A stretch of 39,079 bases of DNA, taken from the NCBI GenBank assembly GCA_003557865.1, contig PWNK01000094.1, forward strand, positions 1 to 39,079, written 5' to 3'. The stretch is from Desulfonatronovibrio sp. (GTDB lineage Bacteria > Desulfobacterota > Desulfovibrionia > Desulfovibrionales > Desulfonatronovibrionaceae). Shown one piece after another: positions 355 to 27,344 of this stretch (within the stretch, counting starts at the first letter, position 1; every line of letters starts with the position of its first letter). Under the pieces are notes generated by a model. The model ran no database searches, was not told the origin of the DNA, and was given only the letters and a program-made list of their open reading frames with translations. The position numbers and the translations under genes were made by a program.

Positions 355-1470
355 TTATTCCGGGGTGGCTTCCAGTCTTAAGTATTTCACCCCTATGGAG
401 TAGATGAGCAGGGACAGGGACAGGGCGAGCACAATAATTCCGATTTCGTACATGCTTGGGAAGTAGGAGACGAATTCAGGACGGGTTTCAGCAAGGTTTC
501 CCACCGGCTTGACCTGGGCGGAAAGCAGCATGACCAGCCGGCCGAAAAACATGCCCACCAGAACGAAGCTGGAGGCCAGAATGATTCCGGCCCTGGAGTT
601 GCGAACTTTGGGAATGACTACCATGATAAAGGGAATAATCAGCCCTACCCACATTTCAACATTATACATTCCTGTACCCGCGATATGCCTGAAGCCGTCA
701 AAGGCCTCCTGCAGAGAGGTGAAGCCGATTACCGCCCTGAGGATAAAGATGAACAATGCCGCGCCCAGCAGTCCGGCAAACATCTTGGAAACATTGTCAA
801 AAATTGGGGCCTGTTCTTTGGGCATTCCACCGGTCAGGGCAAAGTGAAAATGAGAAGCCAGGACCAGAACTGCCATGCCGCTGGTCAGGGCGGTCACCGC
901 GAAATAGATGGCGGTAAAGTGTCCGAAAAAGGCGGGTCTTGCGTCTGCCGTGCCAAAGACTATGCTCAGGGCGGTGTAGGACATGAACATGAGCAGCAGG
1001 GCCAGAAGACCGGAAACCTTGCCTCCCATGCTGTGCCACTGATTTTTATGAATAAAGTAAAACTTGATGATTACAAAGGTGATGTAAATACCGTAAAGGA
1101 CTGCCATCCACCAGATGGGAGACATGAAATTGGGTGAGAGGGCCAGGTTGACGGTGTTGAGCAGGGTGGATAACGGACCCAGGTCCAGGCCCTTGCACAT
1201 TACCCCCACCACCAGAGTGGCCCCGGCCAGGATGGACGCTCTTTTGGCGATGGGATAATACTGCTTCATTCCGAAGACCGAAGGCAGGGAAGACAGGAGT
1301 GTCAGCCCGGCCGCGGTCAGGGCGAAAAACAGGTATCCGGCCATGGGCAGGACCCAGAAGGTGATGTCATTGGCGTTGTAAACTCCCAGTCCCCTGGACA
1401 CCACGGTCAGGGCCGCGAAAAGCCCCGCCAGGACGCCTATTCCCAGCAGGCCAAACCATAATTTACTCAT
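355..1470 (-). CDS. arrC: NrfD/PsrC-type membrane subunit of the putative arsenate reductase
   Basis: A 371-residue, very hydrophobic protein with about nine or ten membrane-spanning stretches separated by short basic loops, as in the NrfD/PsrC family of quinone-interacting membrane subunits. It would anchor the periplasmic catalytic and ferredoxin subunits and pass electrons from menaquinol to them. The ATG at 1470 is preceded by a good GGAGG site six bases upstream. It follows the ferredoxin gene by 81 bases and precedes the TorD-type chaperone gene, giving the order A-B-C-D known for arr operons. NrfD-type subunits also serve polysulfide and thiosulfate reductases, so the arsenic assignment comes from the catalytic subunit. 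Confidence 0.8.
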   Translation of the reverse strand: MSKLWFGLLGIGVLAGLFAALTVVSRGLGVYNANDITFWVLPMAGYLFFALTAAGLTLLSSLPSVFGMKQYYPIAKRASILAGATLVVGVMCKGLDLGPLSTLLNTVNLALSPNFMSPIWWMAVLYGIYITFVIIKFYFIHKNQWHSMGGKVSGLLALLLMFMSYTALSIVFGTADARPAFFGHFTAIYFAVTALTSGMAVLVLASHFHFALTGGMPKEQAPIFDNVSKMFAGLLGAALFIFILRAVIGFTSLQEAFDGFRHIAGTGMYNVEMWVGLIIPFIMVVIPKVRNSRAGIILASSFVLVGMFFGRLVMLLSAQVKPVGNLAETRPEFVSYFPSMYEIGIIVLALSLSLLIYSIGVKYLRLEATPE

Positions 1471-1551
1471 ATTATCCTCCAGAATACGCTGTTTGTAAAC
1501 AGGTTTGTGTGTTTCATTTAAAGATACTCAACCAATTCAGATCATGTCTGA

Positions 1552-2277
1552 TCAGATCATCCCCTTGCCCGGTTCATAAGCGCACGGGCAAAATTCCCGG
1601 ATATAGAAAACCTTGGGCCTGGTACCCAGTTCCGGCCTGAGCCGTTCAGCGCGAAACATGCCCAGCAGCTCATTGACCTTACTGCCGGGGTCGTCCAGGT
1701 CGCCGAATATCCGGGCGCTGCTGGGGCAGACCTCAACACAGTAGGGCAGTTTTCCGGCTTCCACCCGGTGCAGACAGAAATGACACTTTTCAATAACCCC
1801 GGTTGGGCGGATGGCCTTGTAATTGACGTCAGGATCAGGGTTGAAGATGGGCCATCCTTTTGCGTCTACGGCATTTACCAGTCCCCGGGGAGAATAAGTG
1901 CAGCCCGGGATAACCTCGGTATTGTCCTCCCATTCCTGGTGAGGCTTGTTCCAGGTGTAGTTGACCGCCCCGTAGGGGCAATTGACCATGCAGTACCGGC
2001 AGCCGATGCATTTGTCCGGATCATGGGCGGTTATCCCGTCTTTTGTCTTGTAAAGGGCCCTGGTGGGACATCCCCGGACACAGGGAGCGTTTTCGCAGTG
2101 ATTGCACAGGGTGGGGCGGTAATGGTAGCGCACATGGGGAAACCGGCCCAGGGTCTCGGTCAGTTTGTTGGACCAGCGCACACCCTCGGGCAGGTTGTTT
2201 TCATTTTTACAGCCTATGATGCACCCACCGCAGCCGGTGCAAAGCTGCAGGTCTATCACCATCGCGTAATTGGCCAT
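1552..2277 (-). CDS. arrB: Four [4Fe-4S] cluster ferredoxin subunit of the putative arsenate reductase
   Basis: A 241-residue DmsB/PsrB-type electron-transfer subunit. Four cysteine groups are visible: C13-C16-C19-C23, C58-C61-C66-C70 (CNHCENAPCVRGC), C90-C93-C96-C100 (CIGCRYCMVNC) and C165-C168-C180-C184. This is the usual set for four [4Fe-4S] clusters that wire the molybdenum subunit to the membrane quinol oxidase. There is no signal peptide, as expected for a subunit carried across the membrane with its TAT-bearing partner. It lies 107 bases after the catalytic gene. That gap contains AT-rich TATAAT-like stretches near 2358-2375, which could be a minor internal promoter, though I see no matching -35 element. 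Confidence 0.85.
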   Translation of the reverse strand: MANYAMVIDLQLCTGCGGCIIGCKNENNLPEGVRWSNKLTETLGRFPHVRYHYRPTLCNHCENAPCVRGCPTRALYKTKDGITAHDPDKCIGCRYCMVNCPYGAVNYTWNKPHQEWEDNTEVIPGCTYSPRGLVNAVDAKGWPIFNPDPDVNYKAIRPTGVIEKCHFCLHRVEAGKLPYCVEVCPSSARIFGDLDDPGSKVNELLGMFRAERLRPELGTRPKVFYIREFCPCAYEPGKGMI

Positions 2278-2384: not shown

Positions 2385-4949
2385 TTATACTTTTTCCACC
2401 TTTAACCTGATATGGCCGTAAAAGGCTGTTGATCCGCTCAATCGATCATTGTCCGTGGGGATGATATCATTGTTGTTGGCTCCTCTGGGCTCTTTGCCAA
2501 AAACCTTGGCAGCCCAGCGACCATATGCCCAATGCCCCTGGCCAAAGGCCTTGGCCACGGTTCCGGGCTGTGTTCCCTCCCACAGAGCTGCGGTGCAGGT
2601 GATGCTGCCGATGGGTGTGGTAAGCCTGACCTTGTCCCCGGTCTTGATGCCCAGCCTTTCACCGTCGACCGGGTTGAGCTTGGCCACATCTTCATAAGCC
2701 AGGTCGCCCGGATCAAGGTCTTTGAGTTCCATGTACCACGGGCAGTTGGCGCTGCGGCCTTCCCTGTTCAGCCTGGCCTTGTAGTCCACGAACTTGAATG
2801 GGTATTCCTGGGGACTTCCCCATTCATATGGTTCTTCGTGATGGGGGACAAAGGCCAGCTCTCCACGGGCCTCGTAGTTGCACACCTCCATGACCCGGTC
2901 CACACTCACCCCGTGCTTCCGGGCATGGTTTTCCAGAGCTTCTTTGAGGGTCTGGCTGTAAAACTCAAATTTGCCCGTGGCTGTGCCCATATTGCTCCAG
3001 CGGGCCCGGTACTGGTAAGGACCTGAATTCCAGACTCCGATTTTTTTGAATTCCTCCCAGCCGGAAAATGTGTCTCCCCCTCTGGAGGCAGACGGATCCC
3101 AGAAATGCTGCAGCAGATGTTTGCAGGCATACAGATCAAATTCTTCAGCAGTGGTCGGTGTTCTTCCGGTTTCAGGGTCAACAATGGTTCTCAGGTATCT
3201 TTGCAGGTTGTCAAACCCGCGCTCAGCCAGTTTTTCCGCCAGGATCCAGGAAAACTCGGTCTCCATGGCCCTGGCGTCCCAGACGGATCTGATGGCCGGC
3301 TGGCTCAGACTCACTGAACGATGGCCGTTGCTGGAGTGGTCAAGGCTGGCCCACTGCTCGAACATGCAGTTTTTGACCGGCAGAACCACGTCGGCGTAAA
3401 AGCTCATTTCCGACGCGTGGGTGGTCAGATGGGCAAAGAAATCAACCTTGGACATGGCCTGGTCCCAGCGCTTGGTTCCGGGACAGGAAAAGTTGAAATT
3501 GTTGAAAAAACCCACCGCGACCTTTATGTGGTAGGGATCTTCACTGTTGATGGCATCGGCCACATTATTGGTGTTAACACCAGCTCCAGACCCCCCTCTG
3601 GCCAGGTTAGGCCATTCCAGACGGCCCCGCTGATCGATCTTTTCGTATTTCAAACCTTCTTTGGCAATGTCGTCCTGGAAATCCCCGGGAGAGGGGTATC
3701 CCTGGTAAGACCTTGAATTATAGGTCAGAACACCACCTTCATTGTCGCATCCACCTACCAGCCCGCTGAGGGCATTGGCAGCCAGGCATCCATAAGAACC
3801 CCTGGGCTGCATGGCCGGACCTCCTCCCACCCAGGATATGCAGTTGGGGGCTGCTGCGGCAAAGCCCAGAGCCACTCGTCTGATCTGCTCGGCAGGTACG
3901 CCACAGATGCCTGCAGCCCATTCAGGGGTGGCATCCTTGAGGTAGATATTCCACCACTTGACCAGGCCGTGAGTATGTCTTTCCAGAAACATATGCTGGT
4001 TGACGGTTTTACCGGTCTCAAAATGATTGACCCCGTCTATGAAGTCGCCCACAAAAGGCTTGTACCACATCCCTTCAACCAGGATGGTGTGGGCCATGGC
4101 CGTGGCCAGGGCTCCATCGTAGCCGGGCTTGACCGGCAGCCATTCATCGCACTTGGTGCCGGTCCCGGACAGCCTGGGCTCCACTGAGGCTATGCGGGCG
4201 TTGTCCAGGGCGTGGCCCCAGCTGTTGAGGTATGAAGAGACTCCTCTGTTGGCCACCAGGGGGTCGGCTCCCCACAGAAGCACATATCTGGTTTTGGGGA
4301 TGTCGTATTGCATGTACGCCCACTGACCTTCCTGGAAGTAGCGCATTTTCTCGGCCTCTGCACATATGGAGCTGTGGGAGATGTTGTTGGGTGAGCCGAT
4401 GATCTTGGGAACCCGGTCATAAAGAAGGGCATTGAGAGCTGTGTATCTGCCCCGCATAACCATGAACTTGTGAGTCTCATTTTCCCGGCGCAGTTCCATT
4501 ATCTTGTCGGCCAGCATGCCCACGGCTTCATCCCATGATATGGGCACGAACCCTGGGTCTTCATTGCGGCCCTTTCTGGGGTTGGTGCGCTTCATGGGAG
4601 TTTTTAGACGGTCCGGATCATAGCATTGCTGCAGGGCCATGTGAGCTCTGGGACATGAATTGATGCCGTTGGATTTTGAATTGGGGTTGCCTCGGATCTT
4701 TATGGCCCTGCCGTTAACCACATAAATTTGCTTGGTGCACCAGGCGGTACATCCGGTACAAAAGCTGCTGACCCATTCCCCCTGGGCAAGTTTCCGGGCA
4801 TCTGCCGTGCCTTTTGGTGACAAGGCCCGCAGCACCGGGCCGCCCATGGCCATGCCGGCACAGGCAACGGCCGTGCCCTTGACAAATGTTCGCCGGGAAA
4901 GTTTTACGCCGGCCAGACCTTCGTTTTTTTCAATCTGCAGTTTTTTCAT
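2385..4949 (-). CDS. arrA: Respiratory arsenate reductase catalytic subunit (ArrA-type molybdopterin oxidoreductase)
   Basis: An 854-residue DMSO-reductase-family enzyme expected to reduce arsenate to arsenite in the periplasm. Residues 18-24 (SRRTFVK) form a twin-arginine signal. The [4Fe-4S] motif is C64-x2-C67-x3-C71-x27-C99. The motif RGRY is at 166-169, and the Mo ligand region HSSICAEAEK spans 192-201 with Cys196. The spacing Tyr-23-His-4-Cys-5-Lys matches what I recall of the Shewanella ArrA pocket (R165, Y166, H189, C193, K198) with an offset of three. RGRY is the signature reported for ArrA, in contrast to GRGWG in arsenite-oxidising ArxA. The frame stays open to 5063, but the ATG at 4949 has a strong AGGAGG site and places the TAT motif correctly. 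Length and order (A-B-C-D) fit arr operons. The alternative is a close relative with another oxyanion substrate such as antimonate or polysulfide. Confidence 0.8.
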   Translation of the reverse strand: MKKLQIEKNEGLAGVKLSRRTFVKGTAVACAGMAMGGPVLRALSPKGTADARKLAQGEWVSSFCTGCTAWCTKQIYVVNGRAIKIRGNPNSKSNGINSCPRAHMALQQCYDPDRLKTPMKRTNPRKGRNEDPGFVPISWDEAVGMLADKIMELRRENETHKFMVMRGRYTALNALLYDRVPKIIGSPNNISHSSICAEAEKMRYFQEGQWAYMQYDIPKTRYVLLWGADPLVANRGVSSYLNSWGHALDNARIASVEPRLSGTGTKCDEWLPVKPGYDGALATAMAHTILVEGMWYKPFVGDFIDGVNHFETGKTVNQHMFLERHTHGLVKWWNIYLKDATPEWAAGICGVPAEQIRRVALGFAAAAPNCISWVGGGPAMQPRGSYGCLAANALSGLVGGCDNEGGVLTYNSRSYQGYPSPGDFQDDIAKEGLKYEKIDQRGRLEWPNLARGGSGAGVNTNNVADAINSEDPYHIKVAVGFFNNFNFSCPGTKRWDQAMSKVDFFAHLTTHASEMSFYADVVLPVKNCMFEQWASLDHSSNGHRSVSLSQPAIRSVWDARAMETEFSWILAEKLAERGFDNLQRYLRTIVDPETGRTPTTAEEFDLYACKHLLQHFWDPSASRGGDTFSGWEEFKKIGVWNSGPYQYRARWSNMGTATGKFEFYSQTLKEALENHARKHGVSVDRVMEVCNYEARGELAFVPHHEEPYEWGSPQEYPFKFVDYKARLNREGRSANCPWYMELKDLDPGDLAYEDVAKLNPVDGERLGIKTGDKVRLTTPIGSITCTAALWEGTQPGTVAKAFGQGHWAYGRWAAKVFGKEPRGANNNDIIPTDNDRLSGSTAFYGHIRLKVEKV

Positions 4950-4965
4950 ACCCCCTCCTGTTGGG

Positions 4966-4994
4966 TTTGGCTGATATATTGCTTTTTGGCTGAT
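4966..4994. repeat. 10-bp direct repeat in the arrA leader
   Basis: TTTGGCTGAT occurs at 4966-4975 and again at 4985-4994, a period of 19 bases, within 50 bases upstream of the arrA start. On the coding strand it reads ATCAGCCAAA twice. Two half-sites about two helical turns apart could be an operator, or the result of a small duplication. No regulator gene is present in the window. Confidence 0.6.
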
Positions 4995-5020
4995 CCCGTT
5001 AATAGCTATTTGAGGATCTG

Positions 5021-5169
5021 TACCACTACAGCGACACTTTGTGTTAATTATTGCCTCGGCCACCGGGGACAGGCACTTTTGCCGACCTTAAACCGTAAAA
5101 CGGTAGGACTGTCCGGCGGCAAAAGAGCCAGTCCCTTTCCAGCTTAAATAAAGTGTCGCTGTAGTGGTA
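5021..5169. repeat. 149-bp nested inverted-repeat element between arrA and arsC
   Basis: The outer arms are perfect 20-bp inverted repeats: TACCACTACAGCGACACTTT at 5021-5040 and its reverse complement at 5150-5169. Inside lies a second, imperfect 20-bp inverted repeat (5065-5084 against 5117-5136) sharing CTTTTGCCG/CGGCAAAAG exactly. At the centre is the small palindrome ACCGT-AAA-ACGGT (5092-5104). The motif GGGGACAGGCAC at 5065-5076 resembles repeated extragenic palindromes linked to REP-associated transposases; this comparison is from memory. It has no coding capacity, so a MITE-like or REP-like element is the simplest reading. It sits 72 bases upstream of the arrA start. I see no clear target-site duplication. 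Confidence 0.75.
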
Positions 5170-5635: not shown

Positions 5636-6070
5636 ATGAACCATAAAAAGAACATCCTTTTCCTGTGCACCGGGAATTCCTGCCGCAGTCAGATGGCTGA
5701 AGCGTGGACAAATTATCTGCACGGGGATAAGTTTCAGGCCTATTCAGCCGGAGTAGAAAAAACAAGGGTTGATTCCCTGGCCATAAAAGTCATGAACGAG
5801 GCGGGGATAGATATTTCAGGCAATTCTTCAAAACTTGTTGACGAGCTTTCAGGAATTGATTTTGACCTGGTCATCACCCTTTGCGACCATGCCAGGGAGA
5901 GCTGTCCGTTTTTCCCGGGCAGTACCAGGAAAATGCATCAGGGCTTTGACGACCCGCCGTCCCTGGCCCGAAATTCAGCCAGTGAAGAGGAAAGTCTGGG
6001 GCATTACCGAAGAGTCAGGGATGAAATCAGAAAGTTTGTCCTTGATTTGCCCCAGGCAGTCAAGCTCTGA
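5636..6070 (+). CDS. arsC: Thioredoxin-coupled arsenate reductase (LMW phosphatase fold)
   Basis: A 144-residue cytoplasmic enzyme that reduces arsenate to arsenite for detoxification. The P-loop CTGNSCR (C11 to R17) is the CX5R signature of low-molecular-weight tyrosine phosphatases. The second and third redox cysteines, C83 and C90 in TLCDHARESC, have the spacing of the plasmid pI258 ArsC (C82/C89), where a disulfide cascade is resolved by thioredoxin. DDPPS (105-109) supplies the conserved DP acid. An AAGGAG site precedes the ATG. It is divergent from arrA, so respiratory and detoxifying arsenate reductases sit side by side. No arsenite efflux pump or ArsR is visible here. Confidence 0.9.
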   Translation: MNHKKNILFLCTGNSCRSQMAEAWTNYLHGDKFQAYSAGVEKTRVDSLAIKVMNEAGIDISGNSSKLVDELSGIDFDLVITLCDHARESCPFFPGSTRKMHQGFDDPPSLARNSASEEESLGHYRRVRDEIRKFVLDLPQAVKL

Positions 6071-9635: not shown

Positions 9636-9669
9636 TAAAACTTCTTTCACATAAGGAGGTTTTAGGATA

Positions 9670-9969
9670 ATGTTTGATTTAAGTGATTCAGCAAAGTCTC
9701 AACTGGATAAGTATTTTGAAAATCAGGATAAATCCCCGATAAGGGTTTATCTGGCAGCCGGCTGAGGCGGGCCGAGACTGGCCCTTGCTCTGGATGAGCA
9801 AAAAGACAACGACAGTTCCTTTGATGTCAAAGGCTTTCAATTCCTGGTTGATAGAAATCTCATGGACACGGTGGCTCCCATCCAAGTGGACATGACAGAG
9901 GCTGGTTTTGTAATCAATTCCAGACTCAAGGTCGATCCAAGTGGTTGTTCCTCCTGCACTTCCTGCTGA
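9670..9969 (+). CDS. HesB/IscA-like selenoprotein (in-frame UGA read as selenocysteine)
   Basis: A 99-residue protein when the TGA at 9763-9765 (codon 32) is read as selenocysteine. The context is VYLAAG-U-GGPRLALALDE, where HesB/IscA-like proteins carry the first conserved cysteine. The rest continues in frame as a normal HesB-like domain (GFQFLVDRNLMDTVAPIQVD, then GFVIN) and ends CSSCTSC. HesB-like proteins are among the known selenoprotein families of anaerobic bacteria. AAGGAGG precedes the ATG, and a candidate SECIS hairpin follows the UGA at the right distance. Automated calls would miss the gene or truncate it to 31 residues. The exact role in Fe-S or redox chemistry is not known to me. 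Confidence 0.85.
9785..9801 (+). promoter_or_regulatory. Candidate bacterial SECIS hairpin
   Basis: TTGCTC (9785-9790) and GAGCAA (9796-9801) form a perfect 6-bp stem with the loop TGGAT. The loop begins 26 bases after the UGA and has G in its second position, within the general rules for bacterial SECIS elements (apical loop roughly 16-37 bases away, a G in the first two positions). A second hairpin, GGGCC-GAGACT-GGCCC at 9769-9784, abuts it and could stack on it. Confidence 0.65.
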
Positions 9970-10047: not shown

Positions 10048-10080
10048 CAAACGGCCATGTCCCGGGATATGGCCGTTTTT
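10048..10080 (+). terminator. Rho-independent terminator after the HesB-like selenoprotein gene
   Basis: ACGGCCAT (10051-10058) pairs with ATGGCCGT (10069-10076), flanked by A on the left and a T run on the right (10076-10080). It lies about 80 bases after the stop codon. Confidence 0.75.
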
Positions 10081-10245
10081 CATGATTTTTAAATTATTGT
10101 TGACAGTCAAAGCTTGCTTGCAGCACCCTGCTCTTATTGACCTGTACCAGGTTCATACTTAAGCGCGGGCATGTTCAGCTGTATTTTAGTTTCCTTGGCT
10201 TGCTCTTAACCTTTTACATTTTATTCAGATAGTGAGGGTTATCCC

Positions 10246-10536
10246 ATGAAATGTATGACCATAAAAAAAGGTGTAGAATGCGCCCTCATGACTTCAGAGG
10301 GCTGTTCTTACCTCGGGGCGCACTGCCATCCTGTGGTGGAGAAGTGTGAAGGATGCGACAGGACCACAGAATTTCAGGGAAAGATATATTGTAAAAGTTA
10401 CCCCGAACCCGCTGCCAAGTGGGAGCGTGGAGCCTGCAATTTTGCCACCCATATCCAGGCTACCGTTGATAAGACCGGCAAGGTCAAGATCAACCCTCTC
10501 AAGGCTTCCAAGCGTGCCGCCAGAGGACGCCGCTAG
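10246..10536 (+). CDS. PxxKW-family cysteine-rich protein
   Basis: A 96-residue protein with seven cysteines (C3, C12, C20, C27, C34, C37 and further C in IYCKSYP and GACNF) and the motif PAAKW, the hallmark of a small family named PxxKW that is found mainly in Desulfobacterota. The basic tail KASKRAARGRR suggests nucleic acid or ribosome contact, but this is a guess. CXXC-like pairs suggest a metal site. It has a GAGGG site before the ATG and is flanked by a terminator upstream and the M20 hydrolase gene 33 bases downstream. No function is known to me. Confidence 0.75.
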   Translation: MKCMTIKKGVECALMTSEGCSYLGAHCHPVVEKCEGCDRTTEFQGKIYCKSYPEPAAKWERGACNFATHIQATVDKTGKVKINPLKASKRAARGRR

Positions 10537-24858: not shown

Positions 24859-27344
24859 ATGGCCAAGAAAAAAATGCAGTTTAAAATCAAGGGCATGACC
24901 TGCGCCGCCTGTGTTGCCAGAGTGGAAAGAGCCGTGGCCTGGGTTCCGGGCGTGGACAAGGTCAGTGTCAACCTGGCCAATGAGCTCATGTATCTTGAGA
25001 CCCAGGGTGAGGTGAGTATCGAGACCATTGTCGATGCTGTAAAAAAATCTGGTTATGAGGCTGATTACCAGGATGAGCAGCAAAAATCCGTCAGGTTTAA
25101 GGTCAAGGGCATGACCTGCTCGGCCTGCTCGGCCAGGGTGGAAAAAATACTGGGCAAGCAGCAGGGGGTTCTCCAGGCCAGGGTGAACCTTGCAGATGAA
25201 ACGGCCGTGGTCAGGATGGAACCTGGTGCGGATCTTGATAATATCTCAGAGGCAGTCCAAAAGGCAGGTTTTGAAATCCAGGCCGTCGAGGACAAAACCA
25301 GGGCCTATGATGAGGACATGACATTAAGGTTAAGACAGATGCGGGCTAGGGCGGTTATGGCCATGGCATTTGCAGTGCCCCTGATGATTGTTTCCATGGG
25401 AGAGATGGTGGGAATTCCCTTGCCGTCAGTCATCAGCCACCACGACAACCCTCTTAATTTCGCCCTGGTCCAGCTTCTGCTCACTCTGCCCATAGTCTGG
25501 TCCGGAAGAAATTTTTATTTCTTCGGCTTCAGAAATCTTTACCATCTTGCGCCCAACATGGATTCTCTCATTGCTATAGGCACCGGGGCGGCCCTGGTGT
25601 ACAGCTCATGGAACCTGGTTGAGATCATTCTTGGCCACATGCCCCATGAGAGGGCCATGGATCTATATTTTGAGTCCGCTGCAGTCATAATCGCCATGGT
25701 ATCTCTGGGCAAATTTCTTGAACAGCGGGCCAAGACCAGGACTTCCGACGCCATCAGGCAACTGATAAAGCTCCGGACGGATAAGGCTGTGGTGGTTGAA
25801 GGCGATGAACAGATAACCATTAATGTTGAAGACATAGAGCATGATCAGATACTGGTTGTCCGCCCGGGAGAGAGGATTCCGGTGGACGGGACAGTTGTCC
25901 AGGGAAGCTCTGCAGTGGATGAATCCATGCTCACTGGAGAAAGCATTCCCAGAACCAAGGCAGTGGGAGACAAGGTATACGGCGGAACATTGAACACCAA
26001 CGGGAATATCAGGTTCAGGGCTGAAAAGGTCGGTTCAGAGACGGCGCTGGCAAGGATAATCAAAATGATAGAAGAGGCACAGGGCTCAAAAGCACCCATA
26101 GCTTCTCTGGCGGACAGGGTCAGTCTGTACTTTGTTCCGGTGGTGATTGTTCTGGCATTTGTTTCAGGGCTGGCCTGGCTTTTGCTAGGACAGACCGAAT
26201 TTACGTTTGCTCTTAGAATATTCATCGCGGTTCTGGTGATAGCCTGTCCCTGTGCCCTGGGGCTGGCAACACCCACGGCAATAATGGTGGGTACGGGTCG
26301 GGGGCCCAGCTGGGCGTTCTGATTAAAGGGGGAGAAATCCTGGAGGCCGCCAAAAGTGTTCAGGTGGTCATCTTTGACAAGACAGGCACTTTGACCAGGG
26401 GCAAGCCTGCCCTGACCGATATTATCGTTCTGGATGAAAGTTATGACCGCCAGACCCTGCTGTCCATGCTGGGCGGAGTTGAGGATCAGTCGGAACATCC
26501 GCTGGCCAGAGCGGTCGTTTCCGGTTTGAAGCAGGAAGTCAAGGGTTCCTTCATCTATCCGGATAGTTTTGAGGCTCTTCCAGGAAAGGGGGTAAAGGCC
26601 AGGAATGAAAATGATGAGATTATTGTGGGCAGTTTCAGACTTTTTAAAGAACTGATGCCGGGCATGGTTGATGATCAAGAGCTTGAAAGACACAGGAAAG
26701 AACTGAGTTTACAGGGCAAGACTCCTCTTCTGATGTCAGTTAACGGCAGGATAAGGCTGGCACTGGGGGTGGCTGATGAAATTAGAAGCGAAGCCCCGGA
26801 CGTGGTTAAGAGTCTTAAATCAGCCGGCATGACCGTGGTCATGCTGACCGGGGACAACGAAGCAACAGCCCGGGCGGTTGCCGCCCAGGCCGGGATTGAT
26901 AACGTCAGGGCCCAGGTCCTGCCGGAGCACAAGGCCAGCGAGGTTGAATCATATCAGCAGCAGGGATTCAAGGTGGCCATGGTTGGGGACGGGATTAATG
27001 ATGCGCCGGCCCTGGCGGTTGCCGATGTGGGCATATCCATGGGTACAGGCATAGACGTGGCCATAGAGTCGGGTGATATTGTTCTCATGCGCGGAGATCT
27101 GAACGGGGTGCTCACCGCCCTTGACCTCAGCAGGGCAACGGTCAGAAATATCAAGCAGAATCTTTTCTGGGCATTTATTTACAATGTGCTTGGGCTTCCT
27201 GTGGCAGCCGGGGTGCTCAAGATTTTTGGTGGTCCGACACTGAGCCCCATGTTTGCAGGGGCGGCCATGGCCATGAGCTCTTTTTCGGTTGTTTCCAATG
27301 CCCTGAGGCTGAGATTTTTCAAGCCAAAAAATAGTCATAAATAA
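24859..27344 (+). CDS. copA: Copper-exporting P1B-type ATPase CopA, interrupted by a frameshift
   Basis: Two frames together make one ATPase of about 828 residues. The first (24859-26322) holds two heavy-metal-associated domains (GMTCAAC and GMTCSAC), the first six helices, TGES in the actuator domain and the Cu-binding CPC motif in [20 protein letters not shown]. The second (from 26304, first ATG 26364) starts in [13 protein letters not shown] and holds [35 protein letters not shown] and the last two helices. Restoring one G in the G5 run at 26300-26304 joins them as [20 protein letters not shown], the family consensus. Without it the protein ends before the phosphorylation domain and cannot pump Cu(I). 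Sequencing error, true mutation or slippage cannot be told apart here. pyrR is divergent. Confidence 0.9.
26300..26304 (+). other. One-base deletion (frameshift) in copA
   Basis: The reading frame passes CGG-GGG-CCC and stops at the TGA at 26320-26322. One more G gives CGG-GGG-GCC-CAG-CTG and restores homology through to 27344. A G homopolymer is a common place for sequencing and replication slips. Confidence 0.88.

Follow-up and report, generated by a model that had tools for sequence, protein, structure and literature searches.

HesB-like selenoproteins have been listed since at least 2006, when Zhang and Gladyshev tabulated them from Desulfovibrio vulgaris, D. desulfuricans and other organisms, and the same study records conversions of selenocysteine (Sec) to cysteine and fossil SECIS elements for these proteins (PMC1794560). 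A 2026 review includes them under the motif UxGP (PMC13188914). Another HesB-like selenoprotein is MMJJ_08070 of Methanococcus maripaludis, which is cited in PMC11097638 as having been identified by mutagenesis and 75Se labelling. This HesB-like selenoprotein differs from the gene described below in being archaeal, and archaeal SECIS elements lie mostly in the 3'-UTR rather than in frame as a bSECIS (PMC13188914).

The gene studied here lies in a window of 39,079 nucleotides, the whole stretch of DNA that was analysed, from the draft genome (1.8 Mb, 86.6% complete, 172 contigs) of a Desulfonatronovibrio-like sulphate reducer. A forward-strand frame at 9670-9969 runs from ATG to a TGA stop (99 codons plus stop) and contains an in-frame TGA at 9763-9765, codon 32; it translates as MFDLSDSAKSQLDKYFENQDKSPIRVYLAAG-U-GGPRLALALDEQKDNDSSFDVKGFQFLVDRNLMDTVAPIQVDMTEAGFVINSRLKVDPSGCSSCTSC. 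Close named relatives for this gene, with 85-86% protein identity, are MAGs of Desulfonatronovibrio sp. We read it as a 99-residue selenoprotein of the HesB/IscA family in which UGA codon 32 would be decoded as Sec, and from the sequence comparisons that follow we put the probability of this reading at roughly 0.95. The features of the locus, with the basis for each, are as follows.

9654 to 9660, forward strand: Shine-Dalgarno motif AAGGAGG, from the sequence; congeners, as well as a further genus of the family, carry it 5' of the start codon
9670 to 9969, forward strand: predicted hesB/iscA-like selenoprotein gene, 99 residues and a TGA stop; NF038090 at 105.3 bits, frame conserved on either side of the internal TGA
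9763 to 9765, forward strand: predicted UGA selenocysteine codon, residue 32, motif AAG-U-GGP; TGA in all Sec homologues, TGC or TGT in Cys paralogues, Sec machinery in the genome
9766 to 9784, forward strand: second, UGA-proximal hairpin, from the minimum free energy (MFE) fold of the window; variable or absent in congeners
9785 to 9801, forward strand: predicted bSECIS upper hairpin UUGCUC-UGGAU-GAGCAA, 6-bp stem; seen in all 45 Sec homologues from the class and 27/29 from the phylum set, with three pairs showing compensatory changes, and inside published limits
9946 to 9966, forward strand: C-terminal CSSCTSC (Cys93, Cys96, Cys99), the Cys-rich tail of the family, from the alignment
9967 to 9969, forward strand: TGA, by comparison a real stop codon; congeners stop after the same residue, using TAA or TAG
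10049 to 10083, forward strand: predicted intrinsic transcription terminator 3' of the gene; 13-bp hairpin with a T run after it, -19.9 kcal/mol, z -4.0
10246 to 10536, forward strand: PxxKW family cysteine-rich protein; NF038144 at 129 bits

A preliminary description of this DNA, made from the letters alone, had proposed that a TGA at codon 32 interrupts a HesB/IscA-like frame preceded by a strong ribosome binding site. Both proposals hold up. When the TGA is read as a residue, the product spans model positions 1-101 of 101 in NCBIfam NF038090 (IscA_HesB_Se) and scores well above the curated cut-off of 85 bits, and the Shine-Dalgarno motif sits 9-10 nt 5' of the ATG. The UGGP of the window gene fits the reviewed UxGP motif. 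Since HesB-like selenoproteins have been on record for so long, Desulfovibrio among their hosts, and share this motif, the gene is, judged by profile and motif, a further member of an already known and named selenoprotein family of anaerobic sulphate reducers, a point absent from the preliminary description. The likeness to the NF038090 family covers the fold family, the Sec in U-x-G-P, the existence of Cys paralogues, a bSECIS directly 3' of the UGA and an anaerobic delta-proteobacterial host. Nothing essential sets the window gene apart, and it adds one more species and genus record. The sister model TIGR01911 (HesB_rel_seleno), which also describes Sec- and Cys-containing HesB-like proteins, gives 39.6 bits (E 5.8e-10) against a cut-off of 66.35, and the window protein is therefore placed in NF038090. 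In Pfam, PF01521 gives 21.6 bits, under its gathering cut-off of 26.3. With both of these scores below their cut-offs, any equivalence to IscA is distant. Members of NF038090 above the cut-off were found in 262/297 genomes of the class and in 33/89 genomes sampled across the phylum. Within the family, 16/18 genomes carry the gene; all 16 have the TGA form, and 15 of these exceed the cut-off.

An AlphaFold model built with 53 homologues (mean pLDDT 86.9, tail disordered) matched E. coli IscA 1s98 with a TM of 0.74 and a Foldseek E of 8e-6; 1r94 and SufA were also matched. The fold is thus predicted to be IscA-like. A profile search of PDB sequences found IscA and SufA as well, and aligned the Sec column with the internal Cys that they conserve. 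In E. coli IscA, the cluster ligands are Cys35 and two C-terminal cysteines. By homology and on the model, Sec32 would replace the first of these cluster-binding residues. The window protein resembles the A-type carriers IscA, SufA and ErpA of E. coli (PF01521) in its predicted fold and in the Cys that aligned solved relatives carry at the Sec32 position, and differs from them in its sub-gathering Pfam score, in having Sec for Cys and in ending on C-x2-C-x2-C instead of C-x-C. This terminal CSSCTSC had been singled out in the preliminary description as a source of redox or metal residues. It is conserved as a Cys-rich tail across the family alignment, in which Cys96 is invariant and Cys93 and Cys99 are each present in at least 90%. 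Sec32 and this tail may together serve iron-sulphur cluster or metal binding, or thiol/selenol redox chemistry.

Taking the model and the homology together, we give a role as Fe-S or metal carrier about an even chance. A function like that of the A-type carriers is attractive because no protein over the PF01521 cut-off was found in the 18 family genomes searched (the window's own and 17 relatives), and hence no canonical A-type carrier. Two sub-threshold matches appeared in these genomes, both of them the Sec-HesB selenoprotein; as a control, the same search gave a match in 9/14 genomes. Against a carrier role, the mutant of the M. maripaludis HesB-like selenoprotein is unimpaired in N2 fixation (PMC11097638). 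At somewhat short of even odds, the protein would be not an Fe-S carrier but a redox (selenol/thiol) enzyme, or a heavy-metal- or selenium-binding protein, with a selenenylsulphide couple between Sec32 and the mobile Cys-rich tail. The review deems most uncharacterised prokaryotic selenoproteins likely to be redox proteins (PMC13188914), which favours such an enzyme, as does the tail, which is rich in Ser, Gly and Cys and poorly ordered in the model. To our knowledge, structural use of Sec as a cluster ligand is rare, and we count this towards the redox function too. That function is harder to square with the IscA fold, with a Sec32 position that matches a cluster-binding Cys, and with an A-type carrier job that would be left vacant in the family's genomes. 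A stronger form of the carrier proposal, in which the family has no A-type Fe-S carrier other than the HesB selenoprotein, with Sec as a cluster ligand, we consider unlikely.

The case for Sec at codon 32 begins with the residues that alternate there. Among the loci of the class and family, codon 32 is TGA (n=45) or TGC/TGT (n=33), counts that are not phylogenetically independent, as the homologues are related; the pattern is far beyond chance because codon, frame and hairpin recur in dozens of genomes. The alternation bears out the earlier suggestion that the TGA occupies the position of a conserved Cys. Many genomes hold adjacent Sec and Cys copies, and the window's draft genome holds the Sec copy only. 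The frame was also said to remain protein-like after the TGA, and its downstream part proved strongly conserved in homologues. Over the 59 codons that follow the TGA, the window gene and its congener L064 differ at 4, 2 and 30 sites in codon positions 1, 2 and 3, a bias that marks the downstream frame as under strong purifying selection. The alignments show that the UGA at codon 32 has been retained as sense. The final TGA of the gene is, by the same comparison, an ordinary stop, because congeners terminate at the same residue via TAA or TAG; the idea of a second Sec codon at the terminal TGA was rejected for this reason. One genus contains a third tandem HesB paralogue (L034, L036, L037, L038, L039, L041, L043 and L045) with Glu, Ala or Tyr at the Sec/Cys site. 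Only this divergent paralogue has lost the Sec/Cys of residue 32, and it has kept a Cys-containing tail.

The second line of evidence is the hairpin. The preliminary description had noted a 6-bp hairpin with a G-containing loop 25 bases after the UGA; the hairpin is there, and the 25 bases are the distance to the apical loop, the stem beginning at 19 nt. Published limits for a bSECIS are a loop of 3-9 nt with a G in the first two positions, a stem of 4-16 bp, a distance of 16-37 nt from the UGA and an MFE of -7.5 or lower (PMC13188914). The hairpin falls within all four, with a 5-nt loop (UGGAU), 6 bp, 25 nt and, folded alone, -7.8 kcal/mol. Counted from the UGA, a 48-nt segment folds at -18.8 kcal/mol (z -3.25), and 0/200 shuffles did as well. 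A hairpin with a UGGAY loop occurs at exactly the same place in every Sec homologue of the class (45/45) and in 1/33 Cys homologues, and 98.8% of cells pair on the Sec alignment versus 45.3% on the Cys alignment; across the phylum, 27/29 Sec homologues have the hairpin. Double changes were seen at three stem pairs across the phylum (G-C/U-A, C-G/U-A and U-A/C-G). In L083 and L088 the stem GGCUC/GAGCC has become GGUCC/GGACC, at the cost of a change from Glu to Gly. Stem and loop codons are fixed in the Sec forms and vary in the Cys forms (GCT 45/45 versus 1/32, GAG 45/45 versus 15/28, CTG 45/45 versus 20/32). Because the homologues are related, p-values for these counts are not to be taken literally, but no such Sec/Cys difference is seen at most other codons of these genes. 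Given the compensatory changes, the frozen synonymous codons and the near-absence from Cys paralogues, comparative evidence identifies the hairpin at 9785-9801 as a genuine bSECIS under RNA-level selection.

Several related structures were seen beside it. The UGA-proximal hairpin (9769-9784) is strong in the window's own genome and was rejected as the SECIS; it probably lies outside the signal, because it is unconserved in relatives. An Rfam scan of the window returned nothing at gathering scores. The Cys copy in L017 (2313-2369, reverse strand), which adjoins a Sec copy, has an intact bSECIS-like hairpin; it probably changed from Sec to Cys recently, leaving the element as a fossil. Two distant Sec homologues, L092 and L093, have another hairpin, with a loop of GGCC or GGUC 20 nt from the UGA, in place of UGGAY at 25 nt.

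The genome itself encodes the Sec machinery on which the preliminary description had made its reading depend: selA (611 bits), selB (380 bits), selD (373 bits) and a tRNA-Sec with anticodon UCA (81.9 bits). Within the family, selA exceeds its cut-off in 15/18 genomes, and in TGA-form genomes without a selA match a tRNA-Sec was found in 4/4 tested. Co-occurrence with selA is only weakly discriminating, because 80/89 genomes sampled across the phylum carry this gene. The selD of the window's own genome (L007, C122:49342-50268) contains an in-frame TGA close to the start, in the context GAGUASK, and is a second selenoprotein of the genome. On established bacterial Sec biology, SelA would make Sec-tRNA-Sec from the selenophosphate supplied by SelD, GTP-bound SelB would bind the hairpin and deliver this tRNA to the UGA, and the second UGA, at the gene end, would terminate translation normally.

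An open frame alone cannot identify the inserted residue, and the UGA might be read as another amino acid, such as tryptophan through a code change or suppressor, or passed by programmed read-through without Sec. Such decoding is extremely improbable here: the site alternates with Cys and not Trp, on which ground tryptophan was rejected, and the genome has complete Sec machinery and a bSECIS that fits the published model. Nor is UGA a general sense codon, because the gene's own stop is a TGA where congeners have TAA or TAG. A further reading is that the gene is decaying and a nonsense mutation has turned a Cys codon into TGA, or that the TGA is a sequencing error; in its favour, TGA is one base away from TGC/TGT and the assembly is a draft. 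This reading was rejected as already refuted by conservation: the same TGA recurs in independent genomes spread over four genera of the family and over many families in the phylum, the bSECIS covaries, and strong purifying selection on the frame past the TGA rules out a decayed or mis-sequenced gene. The selenoprotein reading is, we suggest, settled by the Sec/Cys alternation at codon 32 together with the covarying bSECIS.

The selenoprotein gene is preceded by an EamA-type transporter and followed by the PxxKW Cys-rich protein and a peptidase-like gene; a terminator resembling the element at 10049-10083 is also present in relatives. In each of the family's four genera the PxxKW gene lies directly 3' of the Sec-hesB gene; at the loci of other families it is missing from this place. 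As the adjacency is confined to one family, the gene order is taken as synteny only. Elsewhere in the window, an apparent frameshift near 26300-26322, beside a GGGGG run, divides a copper-type P-type ATPase at 24859-27344 (forward strand) into two ORFs (487 and 326 aa), which points to an assembly error or a broken gene. A molybdopterin oxidoreductase at 2385-5063 (reverse strand) scores 1187 bits to ArrA, for which the cut-off is 1600, and is followed by 4Fe-4S and membrane subunits; near it lies a gene for a low-molecular-weight phosphatase/ArsC-like protein, and the cluster also spans 355-2277 (reverse strand) and 5636-6070 (forward strand). This is possibly an arsenic respiration cluster of the Arr/Arx type.

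These results correct the annotation of a gene that simple ORF calling overlooks. The comparison of Sec and Cys forms shows, with unusual clarity, RNA-level selection on a bSECIS within a coding sequence. The apparent absence of canonical A-type carriers leads to a concrete and testable hypothesis of a selenium-dependent Fe-S carrier. If the HesB selenoprotein were indeed the sole carrier, with Sec as a ligand, Fe-S protein maturation in this family would be partly selenium-dependent.
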